Below are positions 2,886 through 19,045 of a stretch of DNA of 20,085 bases, piece by piece. The translations under genes were made by a program, and so were the position numbers. The DNA lies in IMG/VR virus record IMGVR_UViG_3300037325_000041, positions 1 to 20,085 of that record. One strand, given 5' to 3'. The notes beneath the pieces were generated by a model that was not told the DNA's origin, ran no database searches, and saw only the letters and a program-made list of their open reading frames with translations. How positions within the stretch are numbered: position 1 is the first letter of the stretch; each line of letters begins with the position of its first letter. This DNA is from a virus.

Positions 2886-3254
2886 ATGTATGGCGGCAGA
2901 ATTAGAACGACATTAGCTTTACAATATGAGGACGAGATCCGTGATCTTAAAGTTACCTTTGACTTGATAGATCGGGTTCGTTCAAAAGTTCCTTGGGAAA
3001 AGTTAGCAATCGATTTATCGAAAGATGAACCGGAGCCTAACTTCTCAATGCTTGCTAAGTTTATTTATTACAACTTAGAGGCCGCCGGTTTTAAGCCTGA
3101 AATAGATGTTATTTACGATGAAATTATGGAAGGCGTCGAGAACCAGGCTGGATTTATTGCGGTAGCTTCGCAGATCATAATTGCATATCAGCCGCAGGGT
3201 CGCGTTAAAAAAAAGCCAGAAAAAGCGATAACGAAAGCGACGAAACCGACTTAG
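2886..3254 (+). CDS. Tail assembly chaperone G (zero-frame product)
   Basis: The zero-frame product is 122 residues, starting MYGGRIRTTLALQYEDEIRD. The first part is a small beta sheet of the GTA-gp10 / Phage_TAC_11 style, followed by 'FSMLAKFIYYNLEAAGFKPE' and a helical region. It then ends in a Lys-rich tail (KKKPEKAITKATKPT) that is produced only when no frameshift occurs. It sits between tail tube and tape measure genes, exactly where gpG/gpGT-type chaperones are found. The protein keeps the tape measure soluble during tail assembly (family knowledge). It starts 3 nt after the tube gene; the ATG has only a weak Shine-Dalgarno. Confidence 0.78.
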   Translation: MYGGRIRTTLALQYEDEIRDLKVTFDLIDRVRSKVPWEKLAIDLSKDEPEPNFSMLAKFIYYNLEAAGFKPEIDVIYDEIMEGVENQAGFIAVASQIIIAYQPQGRVKKKPEKAITKATKPT

Positions 3255-3472
3255 TCGAAATATTTTACGTTGCTTTAGTGGTTCGTTTAAAAGCGGTTAG
3301 TGTCGCTGATTTTTGGAATCTATCGCCCGGAGAGGCGGCCTTAATTCTTGACGATGCTATGACGACACAAATCGAGCAGGAAAAACAACGCGGTGGCATG
3401 AATGACGATATTCGCGACAGATTAGATAGCCGTCGCGCTAAATTACGCGCCAAAGGGATAGACGTCCAATGA
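2886..3472 (+). CDS. Tail assembly chaperone GT, -1 frameshift fusion
   Basis: A -1 shift at 3209-3215 joins the first 110 codons of the G gene to the -1 frame. That frame has no stop from the slip site to TGA at 3470-3472, giving about 195 residues. The added part begins ARKSDNESDETDLVEIFYVA and contains 'VSVADFWNLSPGEAALILDD', close in style to the TAC_6 chaperone domain of gene transfer agents ('FW.LTP.E'). A start at GTG 3278 within this frame has no visible Shine-Dalgarno, so independent translation is unlikely. The T domain of such fusions recruits the tail tube protein to the tape measure. The stop overlaps the tape measure ATG. Confidence 0.78.
3209..3215 (+). promoter_or_regulatory. 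Programmed -1 ribosomal frameshift slippery site A AAA AAG
   Basis: In the zero frame the codons are AAA (3210-3212) and AAG (3213-3215), preceded by A at 3209. This gives the canonical X XXY YYZ heptamer A AAA AAG, the most efficient E. coli -1 slip sequence and the one used by dnaX. It sits in an eight-A run (3207-3214). An AGGG at 3196-3199, 9 nt upstream, could act as the internal Shine-Dalgarno stimulator, as in dnaX. A small hairpin CGAC-TTA-GTCG (3247-3257) covers the zero-frame stop codon. Confidence 0.85.
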
Positions 3473-5892
3473 GTACTAAAGGCAAAATTTCTGTAACAGT
3501 CACAGCAAACGCGGTCAAGTTTAACCGCACGATGAAAGACGTTAGGAAAGATTTAAAAACCACAGGCGCAAGCATCAAAGCGTTTGGTGGTCAAATTGCC
3601 GCTGTGTCGAAAGGTATTGCGGGTTTTGCATTAGCAGGCGCTGCGTTTGCCGCTGGCGGTGCTGTGATAGTCAAGTCAAGCCTAAGCGCTATCAAAGAAT
3701 TAAAAACCTTATCAACCGCCGCAGGTTTAACCGTAGCAGAATTACAGCGCGGTGCTTTTGCTGCTAGGCAAGCAGGTATTGAGCAAGATAAATACGCGGA
3801 TATTTTAAAAGACGTAAACGATAAGGTCGGGGATTTTTTAGTTACTGGCGCTGGTCCTATGGTTGATTTTTTTGAAAAGATAGCCCCAAAAGTAGGCATT
3901 ACAGCCGATGCATTTAAAGGTTTAAACTCACAAGAAGCGTTAGGATTATATGTAAAATCCTTAGAAGAAGCCAACGTAAACCAACAAGAAATGACTTTCT
4001 TTATGGAAGCCATCGCGAGCGACTCTACTCTATTACTTCCATTGCTTACAGAAAACGGTAAAGCGATGAAAGAATATGCGGCACAGGCCGAGGCGTTAGG
4101 CATTGGCCTATCTGAGATTGATGTAGCCAAAGCAATCGAGGCAGAGGAAAAACTAGCAACGTTAGGAACGGTAATTAGTGGAAAAGTTAACGTGGCGGTT
4201 GCTGAGTTATCGCCTTTAATTGTAGCCGCAATGGAATCAATGATTAACTTTGTCGCAGAATCAGGCGGCATACGTGCTGTAATTATCCCGTCCTTACGTA
4301 GTTTAATTGTCGGGCTAGGGCATGTTGCCGATGTGTTTAATGGTTTAAAAGTAGTATTTCAAATTGTAAAAGTTTCCGCGTTAGGTTTTATTGCGTTAGT
4401 GACAACAGCATTTGAAGGTTTTTTCACGGGCGCCGTAACAGGTTTAAACGCCTTTACGTCACAGTTTGCAAAAGAGTTTAGGATCATAGGTGATCTAATT
4501 AGGCCGTTAAGCGATGAAGCTGCAAATATGTTTGACGGCATGGCTAAGTCTATCGAATCCGCACAGTTAAAAGTACCTAAATTAATACAGGATATAGGGG
4601 CCAGTCAGCGCGAGGCGTTAGCGGGTGCAAAAGTTGAGCTATCAGAAATGGCATTAGCCGCGACACCGTTGCAACGCTATACAGAGGCATTTGACGCCAT
4701 AGTCGCAAAGAGTAACGAAGCAACAGCTAAAATGAAAGAAAACATTGAAGCCGAGCGCATAGCCCGAGAAAAGGCGGGTGATGTCACAAGTAAACCCGAA
4801 GAAGTAGATCTTTCTGATTTTGACATCAACGACTTTAGAAAAAATACAGATCTTATGATAGCCAGCTTTGAAGGTCGCTATCATCTAATCGAAGAGAAGG
4901 ATCTGGAACACGTCAAGAAAATGCAGGATCAGTTAGTTGCTGCGAAAGATGCTGGGCTTGTAACAACACAACAATTTAATAAAACGTTTGAGGATTTAAG
5001 CAAGCCGAGAAAGTTAGCAAACTTTGATTTTGATGCGTTCAGAGAAGAAACGGCAACTATTATTTCATCAGTAAACGGTCGGTATGACTTATTGACAGAA
5101 GCTCAGCTAATAAAGCTAAGAGAGCAGCAGGAATTATTAGCGGCGGCAAAGACTCAGGAATTGGTTACAGACGACCAAGCGACTACGGCTGACAGTGAAT
5201 TGGACACAGCAATAGGGGGCAGTGATTTAATTAAGTATCAAGAAGAATCAATTGGGTTGATTGAAGCAATGGGTTTGCGTCTACAGTCACAGGAAGAAAT
5301 GCAAATTGCAGCAGACGCTAGAGAGTTAGCACAACTTAATACCCAGCTAGAAAATAAAAAAATATCGGTTGCTGATTATGAAGAAAAAACCGCCGAGATT
5401 GAACGTCGAAGTAATGAAGCGAAAAGACAAAACACAAAGCAGAATTTAGAAATGGGCTTTCAATTATTAGCACAAAACAGTTCCAAGGTTGGAAAGCTAA
5501 TGGAAGGAATCGCAATATACCAAGCGGTCATAAAAGGGAAGCAAGCGGCGGTTGATGCGTGGCAAGCTGGTATGAGTACTGGTGGTGTATTTGCGCCAGT
5601 TGTTGCGGCGGCATATGCAGCAGCTAGTATCGCGCGAACGGGTGCTATGATAAACAGTATTAAGTCAGGAGCTAAAAGCGCTGGCGGTGGTGGTAGCACA
5701 CCAAGCACACCAGCCGGTGGTAGTGGTGGCAATACTGGCGGCGGTCAAATGCAAGCGCAACAACCAAGTCGTGTTTTTAATGTGGATTTTGCCGGCGGTT
5801 CGTCGACAAGTACCGAACAAACTAGAAACCTGTTAGAATTAATTAATGAGCAAGCCGGCGACAACGTCGAGATAAATTTGAGGGGTGCATAA
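3469..5892 (+). CDS. Tail tape measure protein
   Basis: The product is 807 residues. It starts with a basic, beta-then-helix segment (STKGKISVTVTANAVKFNRT) followed by a hydrophobic Ala/Gly segment at about 40-68, the standard tape-measure opening. A long helical, coiled-coil-rich body follows, with a hydrophobic stretch at about 295-323. Residues about 450-510 and 518-578 are two diverged copies of a 68-residue-spaced unit (DFDINDF... and NFDFDAF...). The C-terminal part has a helix-rich 'KLMEGIAIYQAVIKGKQAAV' segment, an Ala-rich membrane-like stretch at about 705-730 and a Gly/Ser/Pro linker. At roughly 0.15 nm per residue the tail would be near 120 nm. Its ATGA overlaps the chaperone stop. 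Confidence 0.93.
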   Translation: MSTKGKISVTVTANAVKFNRTMKDVRKDLKTTGASIKAFGGQIAAVSKGIAGFALAGAAFAAGGAVIVKSSLSAIKELKTLSTAAGLTVAELQRGAFAARQAGIEQDKYADILKDVNDKVGDFLVTGAGPMVDFFEKIAPKVGITADAFKGLNSQEALGLYVKSLEEANVNQQEMTFFMEAIASDSTLLLPLLTENGKAMKEYAAQAEALGIGLSEIDVAKAIEAEEKLATLGTVISGKVNVAVAELSPLIVAAMESMINFVAESGGIRAVIIPSLRSLIVGLGHVADVFNGLKVVFQIVKVSALGFIALVTTAFEGFFTGAVTGLNAFTSQFAKEFRIIGDLIRPLSDEAANMFDGMAKSIESAQLKVPKLIQDIGASQREALAGAKVELSEMALAATPLQRYTEAFDAIVAKSNEATAKMKENIEAERIAREKAGDVTSKPEEVDLSDFDINDFRKNTDLMIASFEGRYHLIEEKDLEHVKKMQDQLVAAKDAGLVTTQQFNKTFEDLSKPRKLANFDFDAFREETATIISSVNGRYDLLTEAQLIKLREQQELLAAAKTQELVTDDQATTADSELDTAIGGSDLIKYQEESIGLIEAMGLRLQSQEEMQIAADARELAQLNTQLENKKISVADYEEKTAEIERRSNEAKRQNTKQNLEMGFQLLAQNSSKVGKLMEGIAIYQAVIKGKQAAVDAWQAGMSTGGVFAPVVAAAYAAASIARTGAMINSIKSGAKSAGGGGSTPSTPAGGSGGNTGGGQMQAQQPSRVFNVDFAGGSSTSTEQTRNLLELINEQAGDNVEINLRGA
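4816..5202 (+). repeat. Internal two-copy repeat in tape measure gene
   Basis: Residues from 450 (DFDINDFRKNTDLMIASFEG) and from 518 (NFDFDAFREETATIISSVNG) align with a constant 68-residue offset, each followed by RY.L...L.....M/Q. The two units are diverged at DNA level, so the duplication is old. This is a length-altering unit within the coiled-coil body. Confidence 0.6.
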
Positions 5893-5894
5893 TA

Positions 5895-8021
5895 ATGACC
5901 AATAAGATTGACCAAGTAACGCCAACAGAACCTAAAAACCTCGACGAGTTAGCCGACGCCGGACCGATAGCGCCGATAAATTTAACCGGAGAGACTGCGG
6001 TTAAGCCAGGCAATCCAGTTGACTTAACCGAAGAAACCGAGGTCACGCCGGGCAACCCTGTTAATTTGACAGAAGAGGCTATTTCAGAGCCTATCGCACC
6101 AAGAACAACAACGGGAGAGGCAGCACTATCGCCGGGCAACCCTGTTAACTTGACAGAAGAGTCAATATCAGAACCGATTGCACCTAGAACTATAACAGGG
6201 GAGTCTGCTTTAGCGCCCGGCAACCCTGTAAATATAACCGCGGAAGCTTTATCCAAGCCGATAGCACCTGTTACAATGACGAGAGTTGATGCGGTTCCAC
6301 CAGCAAGAACAGGCGGTGATGTTGTTAATTTAGATTTTTGTAACGAATCCTACAATGTTGATTTTGATTACAGCCGCGTTAGTTCAGGTAGTTATATTGG
6401 ACGTAATTTAAATCAGTTTAACCAATATGATTATGTGTTAAAAAATGATTTTGTTGGTAATGTTGAAAACTTATTTTTATATAGCGAACAGTTTAATAAT
6501 GCCGCGTGGGTTAAATTAAATACAACAGTTATAGCTAATACAGAAAATAGCCCAATAGATAATAAAACAGCAGATTCAATTTTTGGTTCTACAACAGACG
6601 GGTTTCATAATTTAAAGCAAGTGGTTTCTGTTACCGATGATGTAATTTATACAATGTCAGTTTTTGCTAAATTTAAAAACCCGCTAGTAACACAAATTAG
6701 CTTAACTACATCAAGCTCAAATAGTGCCTTTACCGGAATTAGAGCAACCTTTAACTTAAAAACCGGCGCAATTGTCGATAATAGCGATAAAATTGCAAGT
6801 TCTCAGTATGTCGGTAACGGCTGGTTTAGATTTTCGTTAACAAATACAGCAACAGCAACAGCAAGCGCAAATCTTGAGGTTGAATTAAACGCCGGGACTT
6901 ATATTGGAACAGGTGATGATTCCTTATTCTTGTGGGGATTTCAGTTAAATACAGGCGATAAGGCGTTACCATACGTTAAAACATTAAGCACAGCAGTAAC
7001 ACAGGCATTTACGGCAAGTCCGCGTATTGAATATGATTATGTAACAGGTGAGTGCTTAGGTTATTTAGCAGAAGGCGCCAGCACTAATTTATTTGTTAGG
7101 AGTGAAGAGTTAGATAATGCATCGTGGAGTAAAATACCTTCTGGTAACGGGACGGCTCCAATAGTAACCGCTAATTTTGGAATTGCCCCAGATGGTACGT
7201 TATCAGCGGATAAGGTCGTTTTTGAAATTGCGGCTGATGTAGCTGGTGATAGAAGCATATTAAGACAAGCAACTACGGCTGGCGCTGAATTTAATCAAAG
7301 CTTTTGGATTAAATCGTTAAATGGTAACGTACAAATAAGTATAGCGGCCGTTGGTGCTGGTATCCTAGATATTAATATAACTAGTGAATGGCAGCGTTTT
7401 GATGCTACAAATTCAACAACAATTAGCTCCAACAATGGGTTGCAATTACAGGGAGACAGAGGCACAGGTGATCTAATAGCAAACGTTCTAGTATGGGGCG
7501 CACAATGCGAAGCTCTACCATTTACAACTAGCTATATAAGAACAGAAGGCTCAACAGTTACGAGAGCGGTTGATTCATTAGAGCCTACATTATTTTCAAA
7601 TATAGGCACCGTTTTTGTAAATGCAAACTTTTTAGGCGGGGCGGATAAGAATCCAGCTAACAGATATCCGTTTTCTTTAAAAGACTCAGGGAATACTAAT
7701 TCTATAGTGGCTTACAATAACCTTGGCAGAAATGTCAATATATTTACACGCGCAAACGGCGCAGCGCAAACGGCGTTAAATGGGGTTGCAGATTCAGTTG
7801 GCGCGTTTAATAAGGTGACGGTTGTTATTAGTGACGTTTCAGATAGTTCGTTATATACAAACGGTGTTTTAACTTCATCAATATCAAATATAAAACCAAA
7901 AGGGTTGACATTAGCAGCAATAGGAAGTGATTCTGGGAGTAGTAATAGTTTATACGGCCACGTTAAAAAAGTCACCTTTTACAATTACGAAATGACAGCA
8001 GACGAGGTGAAAGCACTATGA
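5895..8021 (+). CDS. Tail fibre / receptor-binding protein with lectin-like domains
   Basis: The product is 708 residues. Residues about 21-146 are a tandem array of 14-residue units. Residues about 192-355 and 398-560 are two copies of a beta-sandwich module opening with 'NLFLYSEQFNNAAWVK' and 'NLFVRSEELDNASWSK', a phage fibre/head-spike domain that binds carbohydrate-like ligands in related proteins. The stretch 'YDYVTGECLGYLAEGASTNL' at about 377-398 links them. Residues about 565-708 resemble a LamG / ConA-like jelly roll ('LYTNGVLTS', 'GHVKKVTFYNYEMTADEVKAL'). It lies between tape measure and tail tip genes and ends in an ATGATG overlap. Host-surface recognition is inferred from domains and position. 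Confidence 0.7.
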   Translation: MTNKIDQVTPTEPKNLDELADAGPIAPINLTGETAVKPGNPVDLTEETEVTPGNPVNLTEEAISEPIAPRTTTGEAALSPGNPVNLTEESISEPIAPRTITGESALAPGNPVNITAEALSKPIAPVTMTRVDAVPPARTGGDVVNLDFCNESYNVDFDYSRVSSGSYIGRNLNQFNQYDYVLKNDFVGNVENLFLYSEQFNNAAWVKLNTTVIANTENSPIDNKTADSIFGSTTDGFHNLKQVVSVTDDVIYTMSVFAKFKNPLVTQISLTTSSSNSAFTGIRATFNLKTGAIVDNSDKIASSQYVGNGWFRFSLTNTATATASANLEVELNAGTYIGTGDDSLFLWGFQLNTGDKALPYVKTLSTAVTQAFTASPRIEYDYVTGECLGYLAEGASTNLFVRSEELDNASWSKIPSGNGTAPIVTANFGIAPDGTLSADKVVFEIAADVAGDRSILRQATTAGAEFNQSFWIKSLNGNVQISIAAVGAGILDINITSEWQRFDATNSTTISSNNGLQLQGDRGTGDLIANVLVWGAQCEALPFTTSYIRTEGSTVTRAVDSLEPTLFSNIGTVFVNANFLGGADKNPANRYPFSLKDSGNTNSIVAYNNLGRNVNIFTRANGAAQTALNGVADSVGAFNKVTVVISDVSDSSLYTNGVLTSSISNIKPKGLTLAAIGSDSGSSNSLYGHVKKVTFYNYEMTADEVKAL
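5955..6332 (+). repeat. 14-codon tandem repeat array in fibre gene
   Basis: About nine 14-residue units run in register, alternating 'ISEPIAPRTTTGEA' and 'ALSPGNPVNLTEES' forms, so the higher-order period is 28 residues (84 nt). At DNA level, GGCAACCCTG starts at 6051, 6135 and 6219, exactly 84 nt apart. Units are well conserved at protein level and partly diverged at DNA level. Confidence 0.9.
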
Positions 8022-12894: not shown

Positions 12895-14333
12895 TGTTTT
12901 TACGACAATCAACAGCAAGCCAAGAAGTAAGCTTGGGCTATTTTTTGGACTCAACAGACGGTAACAGCGCCGAGAATGGATTAACAATTGCTAACACTGA
13001 TATTAAGATCAGAAAAGGCGGCGGCACTACTCTGACAAATAAAAATTCAGGCGGCGCAACAAATATCAGCGACGGTATTTATTCCGCTGTACTTGATGCA
13101 ACAGACACAAACACGTTAGGCGATTTAGTTATTTATTGTCACCCAACGGGGGCGCTTGCAACAAAAATTGAATACACCGTTTTACCTGCTGCAAGCTACG
13201 ATGCCTTAATAACAAATGGCTTAAACGATTTATCAGCAGCACAAGTTAACGCTGAGGTCGATACCGCATTAAGCGACTATGACGGCCCGACTAACGCAGA
13301 AATGGAAGCACGAACAGTTACTAGTTCAACATATGCAACAGCGGCAAACTTAGCAGTAGTTGACGATGTAGTCGATGCCATACTAGTTGACACTGACGAT
13401 CTGCAATCCAATCAAGGTAATTTTGCAACAGCGACCGGATTTGCTACAGTATCACAAATCGCGGACGTTCCAACAGTCGCAGAATTTAATGCCAGAACTA
13501 TTGTAAGCGCTAATTATGCAACGGCTTCAAACCTAGCTGCGGTTGATACAGTTGTCGATGCTATCTTAGTGGACACAGGCACAACATTACCGGCTACGCT
13601 AACTGATATGTCAGGATCTGGATTTTCAACCAGTACAGATTCACTTGAAGCATTACGCAACAGGGGTGATTCTGATTGGGTTACAGGCGGCGGCGGTTCA
13701 GCTCCAACAGTAGCGCAAATTCGTACCGAAATGGATGATAATTCAACTAAGCTTGCATCAATATTAACTGACACCGGCACAACTATTCCAGCAACATTAA
13801 CTGACATGTCAGGGCCTACATTCTCAACTTCAACTGACTCACTTGAAGCTATTAGAAACAGGGGTGATTCATCCTGGACTACTGGCGCGGGTGGATCATC
13901 GCCAACAGTTGAACAAATACGAGCAGAGCTAGACGACAATTCAACTAAATTGGCCGCGATACTTTTAGATACAGCAGAAATTGCAAACGTGCCAACTGTA
14001 ACGCAGTTTAACGCCAGAACATTACTTGCAGCAGATTACTTTGACCCTGCGTCTGATGCAGTTGCAAACGTAACCCTAGTAGACACCACAACAACCAACA
14101 CAGACATGTTGAGCGCTTCTGATGTACTAACCACACAAATGACAGAAAGCTACGCAGCGGACGGCACAGCACCAACACTTGCAGAAGCTATATTCTTATC
14201 AATGCAAAACTTGCAAGACTTTAGCTTTTCAGGAACTACGCAAACCGTTAAGAAAATTGACGGAAGCACAACAGCAGCAACTTACACGCTAGACGATGCA
14301 TCGGCACCAACTAGCAAGACACGAGCAAGTTAA
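12894..14333 (+). CDS. Tail stalk fibre protein with repeats
   Basis: The product is 479 residues. Residues 1-105 form an N-terminal beta domain ('MFLRQSTASQEVSLGYFLDS', 'TIANTDIKIRKGGG', 'YSAVLDATDTNTLGDLVIYC') that recurs in many phage fibres, probably as the attachment end. After it comes a stalk with 'TYATAANLAVVDDVVDAILV'-type units and two 66-residue tandem copies (about 227-292 and 293-358), 'TGTTLPATLTDMSG' and 'TGTTIPATLTDMSG'. Short heptad-like segments suggest a trimeric coiled stalk. The C-terminal part carries 'LAEAIFLSMQNLQDFSFSGT' and 'KKIDGSTTAATYTLDD', a typical fibre ending. It overlaps the previous and following genes (TAATG). Confidence 0.72.
   Translation: MFLRQSTASQEVSLGYFLDSTDGNSAENGLTIANTDIKIRKGGGTTLTNKNSGGATNISDGIYSAVLDATDTNTLGDLVIYCHPTGALATKIEYTVLPAASYDALITNGLNDLSAAQVNAEVDTALSDYDGPTNAEMEARTVTSSTYATAANLAVVDDVVDAILVDTDDLQSNQGNFATATGFATVSQIADVPTVAEFNARTIVSANYATASNLAAVDTVVDAILVDTGTTLPATLTDMSGSGFSTSTDSLEALRNRGDSDWVTGGGGSAPTVAQIRTEMDDNSTKLASILTDTGTTIPATLTDMSGPTFSTSTDSLEAIRNRGDSSWTTGAGGSSPTVEQIRAELDDNSTKLAAILLDTAEIANVPTVTQFNARTLLAADYFDPASDAVANVTLVDTTTTNTDMLSASDVLTTQMTESYAADGTAPTLAEAIFLSMQNLQDFSFSGTTQTVKKIDGSTTAATYTLDDASAPTSKTRAS
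13572..13967 (+). repeat. 66-codon tandem duplication in stalk fibre gene
   Basis: Unit 1 is 13572-13769 and unit 2 is 13770-13967, each 198 nt and in register with the reading frame. Each encodes 'DTGTT.PATLTDMSG', 'FSTSTDSLEA', 'RNRGDS' and 'DDNSTKLA'. They are similar but not identical at DNA level. Confidence 0.88.
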
Positions 14334-15758: not shown

Positions 15759-16145
15759 ATGGCTTTTAAACTAGGCACAAACAGCAAAAATAACTTAAAG
15801 GGCGTTGATGCCATTCTTTATAAAATTGTAGAGCGCGGATTGCAGATAAGTAAGTATGATTTTGGCATACCTGGCGATGGTGGTATACGAACTGCACAGC
15901 GTCAGAATGAGCTTTTTAAGCAAGGGTCAACACAATTAGATGGATACAAAAAAGAAAGTTACCACCAGACTGGTAGAGCCTTTGATGTGTTTGGATATGT
16001 AGACGGAAAAGCAAACTATGAACATATTGTAATGACGCATATCGCAGCCGCTTTGCTACAGGCTGCAAGCGAGTTCGGCGTTGCTTTACAATGGGGCGGT
16101 TTTTGGACAAGCTTTGTAGACATGCCGCATTATCAACTAGGATAA
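15759..16145 (+). CDS. Endolysin, M15 family D-Ala-D-Ala/L-Ala-D-Glu peptidase
   Basis: The product is 128 residues. Zinc-peptidase motif 'SYHQTGRAFDVFGYV' carries H69 and D76, and 'DMPHYQL' carries H124 with D121 nearby: these are the SxHxxGxAxD and PHxQ features of VanY/M15-type peptidoglycan peptidases, with two His and one Asp as the zinc ligands. 'GGIRTAQRQNELFKQGSTQLDG' upstream is also typical. It cleaves peptide stems in the host wall at lysis. The length matches single-domain phage M15 endolysins; no wall-binding domain or signal peptide is visible, so release through a holin is needed. A good Shine-Dalgarno AAGGAG (15745-15750) precedes the ATG. Confidence 0.9.
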   Translation: MAFKLGTNSKNNLKGVDAILYKIVERGLQISKYDFGIPGDGGIRTAQRQNELFKQGSTQLDGYKKESYHQTGRAFDVFGYVDGKANYEHIVMTHIAAALLQAASEFGVALQWGGFWTSFVDMPHYQLG

Positions 16146-17772: not shown

Positions 17773-18090
17773 ATGAAACAAGTTACAATACTTAGTCATA
17801 AATGTGATTTTATTAGAGACGTACATCCATGTGCAGTTGATAATGATGGAAGATTAACGTATGAATCTGATGATTACATGACCCTTAAATATACACAAAA
17901 AGGTTCTGTTTTTTTAAAAAATACAACCGGAATTTTTGACATTAAAATTATTCTATCAAAAAAAGAAAATGGCAAAACAGTCTTAACTGGGGGTTATATT
18001 CAAGCTAATTTTTTATTTTCTTCAGCATGTTTGGAGAGTGGAGATATGGAGTTTTGGTCAGCAGGTAAAATAGATTTTGTTAATTCATAA
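17773..18090 (+). CDS. Unknown 105-aa early gene
   Basis: The product is 105 residues, starting MKQVTILSHKCDFIRDVHPC. It has 'DGRLTYESDDYMTLKYTQKG', 'FDIKIILSKKENGKTVLTGG' and 'FSSACLESGDMEFWSAGKID', suggesting alternating beta strands, with three Cys (C11, C20 and one near 86). No family is recognised. A GAGGG Shine-Dalgarno (17761-17765) precedes the ATG. It is the first gene of the operon with Rad52 and the coiled-coil protein, 16 nt before the Rad52 ATG. It could be a recombination accessory or another early counter-defence gene; nothing proves either. Confidence 0.6.
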   Translation: MKQVTILSHKCDFIRDVHPCAVDNDGRLTYESDDYMTLKYTQKGSVFLKNTTGIFDIKIILSKKENGKTVLTGGYIQANFLFSSACLESGDMEFWSAGKIDFVNS

Positions 18091-18102
18091 ACAACAGGGC
18101 GA
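18089..18102 (+). repeat. 14-nt direct repeat, copy 1, ribosome-binding region of the annealing gene
   Basis: AAACAACAGGGCGA lies just before ATG 18107 and carries the Shine-Dalgarno CAGGG. The second exact copy is at 19025-19038. Confidence 0.7.
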
Positions 18103-18106
18103 AAAC

Positions 18107-19045
18107 ATGAACATTGAAAAACTAGCAGCAAAATTTGACGAACGCGACATTGAATGGCGCGTACAGCAACAAGGCAAAAGCGGCAATAACTTATGGGCTA
18201 GGGTTTTTTGCTACATAACAAACCGCGCAATAATGGCAAGGCTTGACGCAGTTTGCGGAGCGCATGGTTGGAAAAACGAGTTTAAAGCAACGCCGTGTGG
18301 CAAAGGTTATCAATGCGGTATCTCAATTAAAATTGGAGATGAATGGGTTACACGTTGGGATGGCGCCGAAATAAGCGGGGGCGGTAGCATTGACGCAGTT
18401 AAGTCGACTATGTCCAACAGCATGAAACGTGCCGGTGTTCAATGGGGGATTGGTCGATACCTTTACAGGCTTGAGACTGTTTTTACTGATTGCGTTCTAT
18501 GTGATAACCAGCGCGACGTGCCAGCGGGTTACAATTACCAGTATCACAAAGGCAAGGGCAACGATTCAAGCTACGGAACAGCATGGAGAACACCCGACCT
18601 ACCATCTTGGGCTTTGCCTACAACAAAACTTCAAATACAAAATCACTTCAAAGACATTGCAAACGCTGAAACAATGGAGGAATTAAAAACCGCGTTTAAA
18701 TATGCGTTTAATACTGCTGAAACTCAAGACACAGCGCAAGAGTCAGAAGTATTATTATCTGAGTTCACAGAAGCCAAGGACGTAGCCAAGCAGAAATTAA
18801 TTGACTATGCCGCACAAGTTGCCATTGAAGAGTCAAAAGCCGCTGAGGATGCTATACAAGAATCAATTAGTGTAATCATGGCATCCAGCAACGAGTCGGT
18901 TTTAAATGGTCAAACTAAACTGGCATTAAAGAAAGCGGAAAAAATACAAAATCTTGACACTCAGCGCGAATGTATTGTTAATATCAACAAAGCTAGAAAA
19001 ATCCGTTTAACTAAACTTAATGAAAAACAACAGGGCGAGAAATAA
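18107..19045 (+). CDS. Rad52/Rad22-type single-strand annealing protein
   Basis: From ATG 18107 (Shine-Dalgarno CAGGG at 18095-18099) the product is 312 residues. The first about 125 residues are the Rad52/Rad22 annealing domain: 'DIEWRVQQQGKSGNNLWARV', 'TNRAIMARLDAVCGAHGWKN', 'CGISIKIGDEWVTRWDGAE' (GDEW at 77-80) and 'MKRAGVQWGIGRYLYRLE' (M106 on). It promotes annealing of complementary ssDNA in phage recombination and replication (family knowledge). The C-terminal about 110 residues are helical and charged, probably for oligomerisation or partner binding. An earlier TTG at 18077 is in frame but would overlap the previous gene. It overlaps the next gene as TAATG. Confidence 0.88.
   Translation: MNIEKLAAKFDERDIEWRVQQQGKSGNNLWARVFCYITNRAIMARLDAVCGAHGWKNEFKATPCGKGYQCGISIKIGDEWVTRWDGAEISGGGSIDAVKSTMSNSMKRAGVQWGIGRYLYRLETVFTDCVLCDNQRDVPAGYNYQYHKGKGNDSSYGTAWRTPDLPSWALPTTKLQIQNHFKDIANAETMEELKTAFKYAFNTAETQDTAQESEVLLSEFTEAKDVAKQKLIDYAAQVAIEESKAAEDAIQESISVIMASSNESVLNGQTKLALKKAEKIQNLDTQRECIVNINKARKIRLTKLNEKQQGEK
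19025..19038 (+). repeat. 14-nt direct repeat, copy 2, ribosome-binding region of the coiled-coil gene
   Basis: AAACAACAGGGCGA again, in the last codons of the annealing gene and just before the ATG of the coiled-coil gene (19045). Here it encodes part of the C-terminal KQQGEK. Confidence 0.7.

Follow-up and report, generated by a model that had tools for sequence, protein, structure and literature searches.

Frameshifting in the synthesis of tail assembly chaperones is used by most long-tailed phages. The model case is the G/GT pair of lambda, in which two overlapping ORFs lie between the tail tube and the tape measure genes, and the -1 slippery heptamer G_GGA_AAG is located near the end of the first ORF. 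This mode of expression has long been known and is described as widely conserved (Xu, Hendrix and Duda, 2004, as cited in PMC5009743), and 2397 cases are annotated (PMC10885494). A second known example is Escherichia coli dnaX, which combines A_AAA_AAG with a downstream stem and, about 9-10 nt upstream, a Shine-Dalgarno-like element. In gene transfer agents (GTAs), tail chaperones 1 and 2 are encoded by g10 and g10.5 of RcGTA (PMC11409702), which are of the Phage_TAC_11 and Phage_TAC_6 type, respectively. In these agents, the second chaperone starts from a codon of its own, which in most cases overlaps the stop of the first gene, and there is no conserved slippery heptamer.

The locus analyzed here lies in a 20,085-nucleotide stretch of viral DNA (the window) from a marine-type phage and comprises the following features:

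2475-2882, + strand: tail tube protein gene (Phage_tail_2), upstream of ORF1
2886-3254, + strand: ORF1, in the zero frame, a tail assembly chaperone of 122 aa that resembles lambda gpG in position and is weakly TAC_11-like
3196-3199, + strand: AGGG, Shine-Dalgarno-like, a possible 5' stimulator
3209-3215, + strand: slippery heptamer A_AAA_AAG, followed by CC
3209-3472, + strand: ORF2, -1 frame, 87 codons and then TGA (3470-3472), lambda T-like C-terminal part, probably TAC_6-related
3223-3288, + strand: larger predicted stem-loop, beginning 7 nt past the heptamer, candidate 3' stimulator, within which GTG 3278 would lie
3247-3257, + strand: small hairpin (CGAC-TTA-GTCG) that forms the inside of the larger stem and spans TAG 3252-3254
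3469-5892, + strand: tape measure protein gene, downstream of ORF2

The two chaperone ORFs are thus flanked by the tail tube and tape measure genes in the canonical lambda G/GT order, which is also the order of the GTA genes. Direct reading places eight A residues at 3207-3214, followed by G3215, and the ORF1 codons at 3204-3215 are GTT AAA AAA AAG, so that A_AAA_AAG lies in the zero frame, as the initial annotation had stated. ORF1 contains no other in-frame X_XXY_YYZ motif and terminates, again by direct reading, at TAG 3252-3254. In the -1 frame, the stop TAA 3206-3208 stands right before the heptamer, after which the frame stays open to the ORF2 stop, whose TGA shares an ATGA (3469-3472) with the ATG of the tape measure gene. 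A -1 shift at the heptamer would generate a fusion of 195 aa with the junction ...VKKKAR.... In the predicted structure of ORF1, a confident beta-hairpin and helices extend to about residue 101 and a low-confidence or disordered tail begins at about residue 102; the shift site would therefore be located in a probable linker. The kinship to lambda G/T is drawn from this layout, and the heptamers differ (G_GGA_AAG in lambda, A_AAA_AAG in the window). In both systems, the fusion is expected in low copy; its absence from the virion is a further mark of the lambda type.

AAAAAAG, GGGAAAG and CCCAAAG are highly shift-prone heptamers in E. coli, and a 3' CC is the most shift-prone context reported for A_AAA_AAG (PMC5009743). 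The heptamer by itself is not strong evidence, as the lysine-rich tail of ORF1 could yield one by chance: AAAAAAG appears within the last 35 ORF1 codons in 21% of synonymous recodings and in 2% of codon permutations, and the in-frame XXXYYYZ rate in the ORFs of the window is 0.0083 per codon. What lifts the frameshift above chance is the conservation of the in-phase site in homologous loci. Via homologues of the tape measure protein, 64 ORF1/ORF2 pairs were located in viral contigs and phages and reduced, together with the window, to 50 non-redundant clusters. An in-phase XXXAAAN heptamer is present in the overlap of 40 of these clusters, compared with 19/50 and 12/50 in the two control phases, which supports the earlier proposal of a -1 frameshift joining two tail assembly chaperone ORFs. 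The in-phase heptamers are AAAAAAG/A/C, GGGAAAG/C and CCCAAAG. When only GGG/CCC-AAA-N sites are counted, which homopolymer runs cannot inflate, 12, 2 and 0 sites fall into the three phases (binomial p about 1e-4). No in-phase heptamer was found in 10/50 clusters, some of which are probably mis-chosen ORF pairs.

Isolated phages are among these relatives. Pseudoalteromonas phages PHS3, PHS21 and AL carry CCCAAAG at the equivalent place, Oceanospirillum phage vB_OliS_GJ44 carries AAAAAAG and Paracoccus phage Pben1 carries GGGAAAG; all share with the window a homologous tape measure protein, a related ORF2 and a -1 overlap with a slippery heptamer, which in some of them is not that of the window. 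AAAAAAG is also present in the nearest divergent relative, L019, whose ORF2 is 42% identical (E 2e-20). To judge from this comparison, recoding is the normal way of joining the two ORFs in related phages and no peculiarity of the window. In the deposited records of the isolates, ORF2 appears as a short hypothetical protein and there is no joined frameshift feature, so that the chaperone fusion is missing from them as well. In PHS3 (L007 3879-4004), GJ44 (L008 3832-4008) and Pben1 (L011 2169-2390), ORF2 was annotated from an internal start and the frameshift was missed.

Taken at the level of sequence, the locus adds a further case, with an ordinary heptamer, to the known lambda G/GT class, and the long chaperone is very probably made by a programmed -1 ribosomal frameshift. 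Most ribosomes would read ORF1 through to its TAG and release the short chaperone. A minority would slip back by one base, with tRNA-Lys re-pairing on the tandem lysine codons of A_AAA_AAG (3209-3215), and would read on in the -1 frame until the stop at 3470, yielding the 195-aa long chaperone (...GRVKKKARKSDNE...). The frameshift of the window thus leads to the longer product, in contrast to E. coli dnaX, where it leads to the shorter one. By analogy with the assembly roles of the lambda short and long chaperones (PMC5009743), the role of the short form would be to coat the tape measure protein, and tail tube subunits would be brought in through the TAC_6-like extension that the long form carries. 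The gene in the window is hence a tail chaperone that standard gene calling cuts into two, an annotation that is now fixed.

The same fusion could be encoded without any ribosomal slip if RNA polymerase added or dropped A residues on the A8 run and thereby altered the mRNA. At 3207-3215, the window has one of its two longest A/T runs (A8, then G), and in-phase AAAAAAA runs occur in many relatives too. However, some of the isolated relatives have CCCAAAG or GGGAAAG at the equivalent site and no long run, and transcriptional slippage does not need the X_XXY_YYZ phase, yet the GGG/CCC sites keep it in 12/14 cases. Transcriptional slippage is accordingly considered a very unlikely source of the long product.

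Translation of ORF2 as a separate gene, possibly coupled to the ORF1 stop, would have to begin at GTG 3278. Direct reading confirmed the previous claim that this codon is the first conventional start in the ORF2 frame and that it has no Shine-Dalgarno sequence; it is also located inside the predicted stem. In the sister contig L001, the codon is GTA and ORF2 is otherwise intact, and ORF2 of at least one homologue (L032) lacks a start that would leave 30 or more codons. Within this phage group, ORF2 is therefore unlikely to be initiated independently, and the second ORF has no usable start of its own, as in the lambda G/GT type.

A precedent for a separate ORF2 gene is provided by the GTAs, whose homologous second chaperone is independently started. 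In Rhodobacteraceae genomes, 38 GTA-type loci (L179-L186, L191-L220) were found through PF11836; they were classed as GTAs from high PF11836 scores, the gene order and a short gene that follows. Many Rhodobacterales tape-measure matches (L138, L148, L153 and L177) have a different tail cassette that is not GTA-like and were discarded. Of the 38 GTA-type loci, 37 provide the second chaperone with a start of its own, 24 of the 37 by an ATGA or GTGA overlap, and in only two does an in-frame X_XXY_YYZ of any kind occur at 90 nt or less from the stop of the first gene. Of the earlier statement that GTA chaperones are either separate or fused, the first half agrees with this sample, but no fused pair was seen among the 38 loci. 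The window group differs from this arrangement: a dedicated start for the second chaperone at the end of the first is absent from it. Given that GTG 3278 reads GTA in L001 and that ORF2 of L032 lacks a usable start, the chance that ORF2 is an independent gene appears extremely small. The TAC_11/TAC_6-type pair would then be joined by frameshifting in phages and separately started in GTAs, a small difference, open to testing, that sets phages apart from their domesticated relatives. Finally, the split of a single ancestral gene by an unprogrammed frameshift, be it a mutation or an error of the assembly, has next to no probability: indel errors often fall on homopolymer runs, but three contigs read identically at the shift site and divergent homologues retain the two-frame layout with different heptamers, which already contradicts such an origin.

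The TAC_11-like and TAC_6-like labels initially given to ORF1 and ORF2 fared unequally. In a direct HMM search, the ORFs of the window matched no Pfam model, neither TAC_11 nor TAC_6. Among 11 aligned members of the group, with matches counted at E up to 1, Phage_TAC_6 (PF09550) was recovered for 10 of the ORF2s and Phage_TAC_11 (PF11836) for five of the ORF1s. The ORF2 profile matches the profile of the second GTA chaperone with E 3e-10, and both proteins have the FWxLTPxE domain in common, which reads DFWNLSPGE in ORF2. The matches of the relatives and the profile comparison argue with good confidence for a TAC_6-related ORF2. The ORF1 profile reaches a probability of 49% against the GTA protein profile, and ORF1 is plausibly TAC_11-related. 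A fold search with ORF1 retrieved nothing significant from the PDB; against viral models, it gave six matches at E up to 0.001, all unnamed, and named tail assembly chaperones scored weaker. A tblastn search of ORF2 against phage records returned no match, and the sole weak match of ORF1 (Arthrobacter phage Shoya, E 0.8) falls on the second half of Shoya's frameshifted chaperone gene and was taken as chance.

The initial annotation had further described the site as a dnaX-like cassette with an upstream Shine-Dalgarno element and a small downstream hairpin. The heptamer is shared with E. coli dnaX, and the AGGG at 3196-3199 is indeed present with a comparable spacer of 9 nt, but it is missing in most of the nearest relatives of the window. 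In the wider homologue set, Shine-Dalgarno-like motifs precede 15/40 sites versus 23/200 control positions (p 2e-4), an enrichment to which composition may contribute, since the controls were drawn from the ordered part of ORF1. The small hairpin covers the zero-frame stop as described; unlike the dnaX stem, it is too far away, starting 31 nt downstream of the heptamer, and it is broken in L001, so that it was rejected as a stimulator. The larger stem (3223-3288), whose distance of 7 nt from the heptamer possibly matches that of the dnaX stem, is the better candidate. It has a predicted stability of -18.5 kcal/mol, attained by 6/200 shuffles (z -2.4 in a restricted fold window), versus an unexceptional z of -0.3 in the wider window 3190-3290, and the outer helices of the stem are retained in L001. 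Across the homologous sites, downstream structure is slightly enriched in general (mean z -0.99 vs -0.55 in controls).

Several relatives share with the window the ATGA in which the ORF2 stop and the tape measure start overlap; counted from the first base of the ORF2 stop codon, the tape measure gene starts at most 2 nt further on in 22/40 loci. Since the tape measure start also has little Shine-Dalgarno sequence of its own, frameshifted ribosomes may go on to start the tape measure gene. If so, the frequency of frameshifting would govern the amount of tape measure protein as well as that of the long chaperone, and ordinary start-stop coupling would have been swapped in by GTAs during their domestication; this extension is speculative, and we regard it as rather unlikely.

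Elsewhere in the tail region of the window, tandem repeats of 42/84 bases (5982-6229) lie inside a predicted protein with a Laminin_G_3 domain, and repeats of 198 bases (13572-13948) lie inside another predicted tail-region protein. Further downstream, the window encodes an M15 peptidase (15759-16145), which is probably the lysis enzyme, and a Rad52-family annealing protein (18077-19045).
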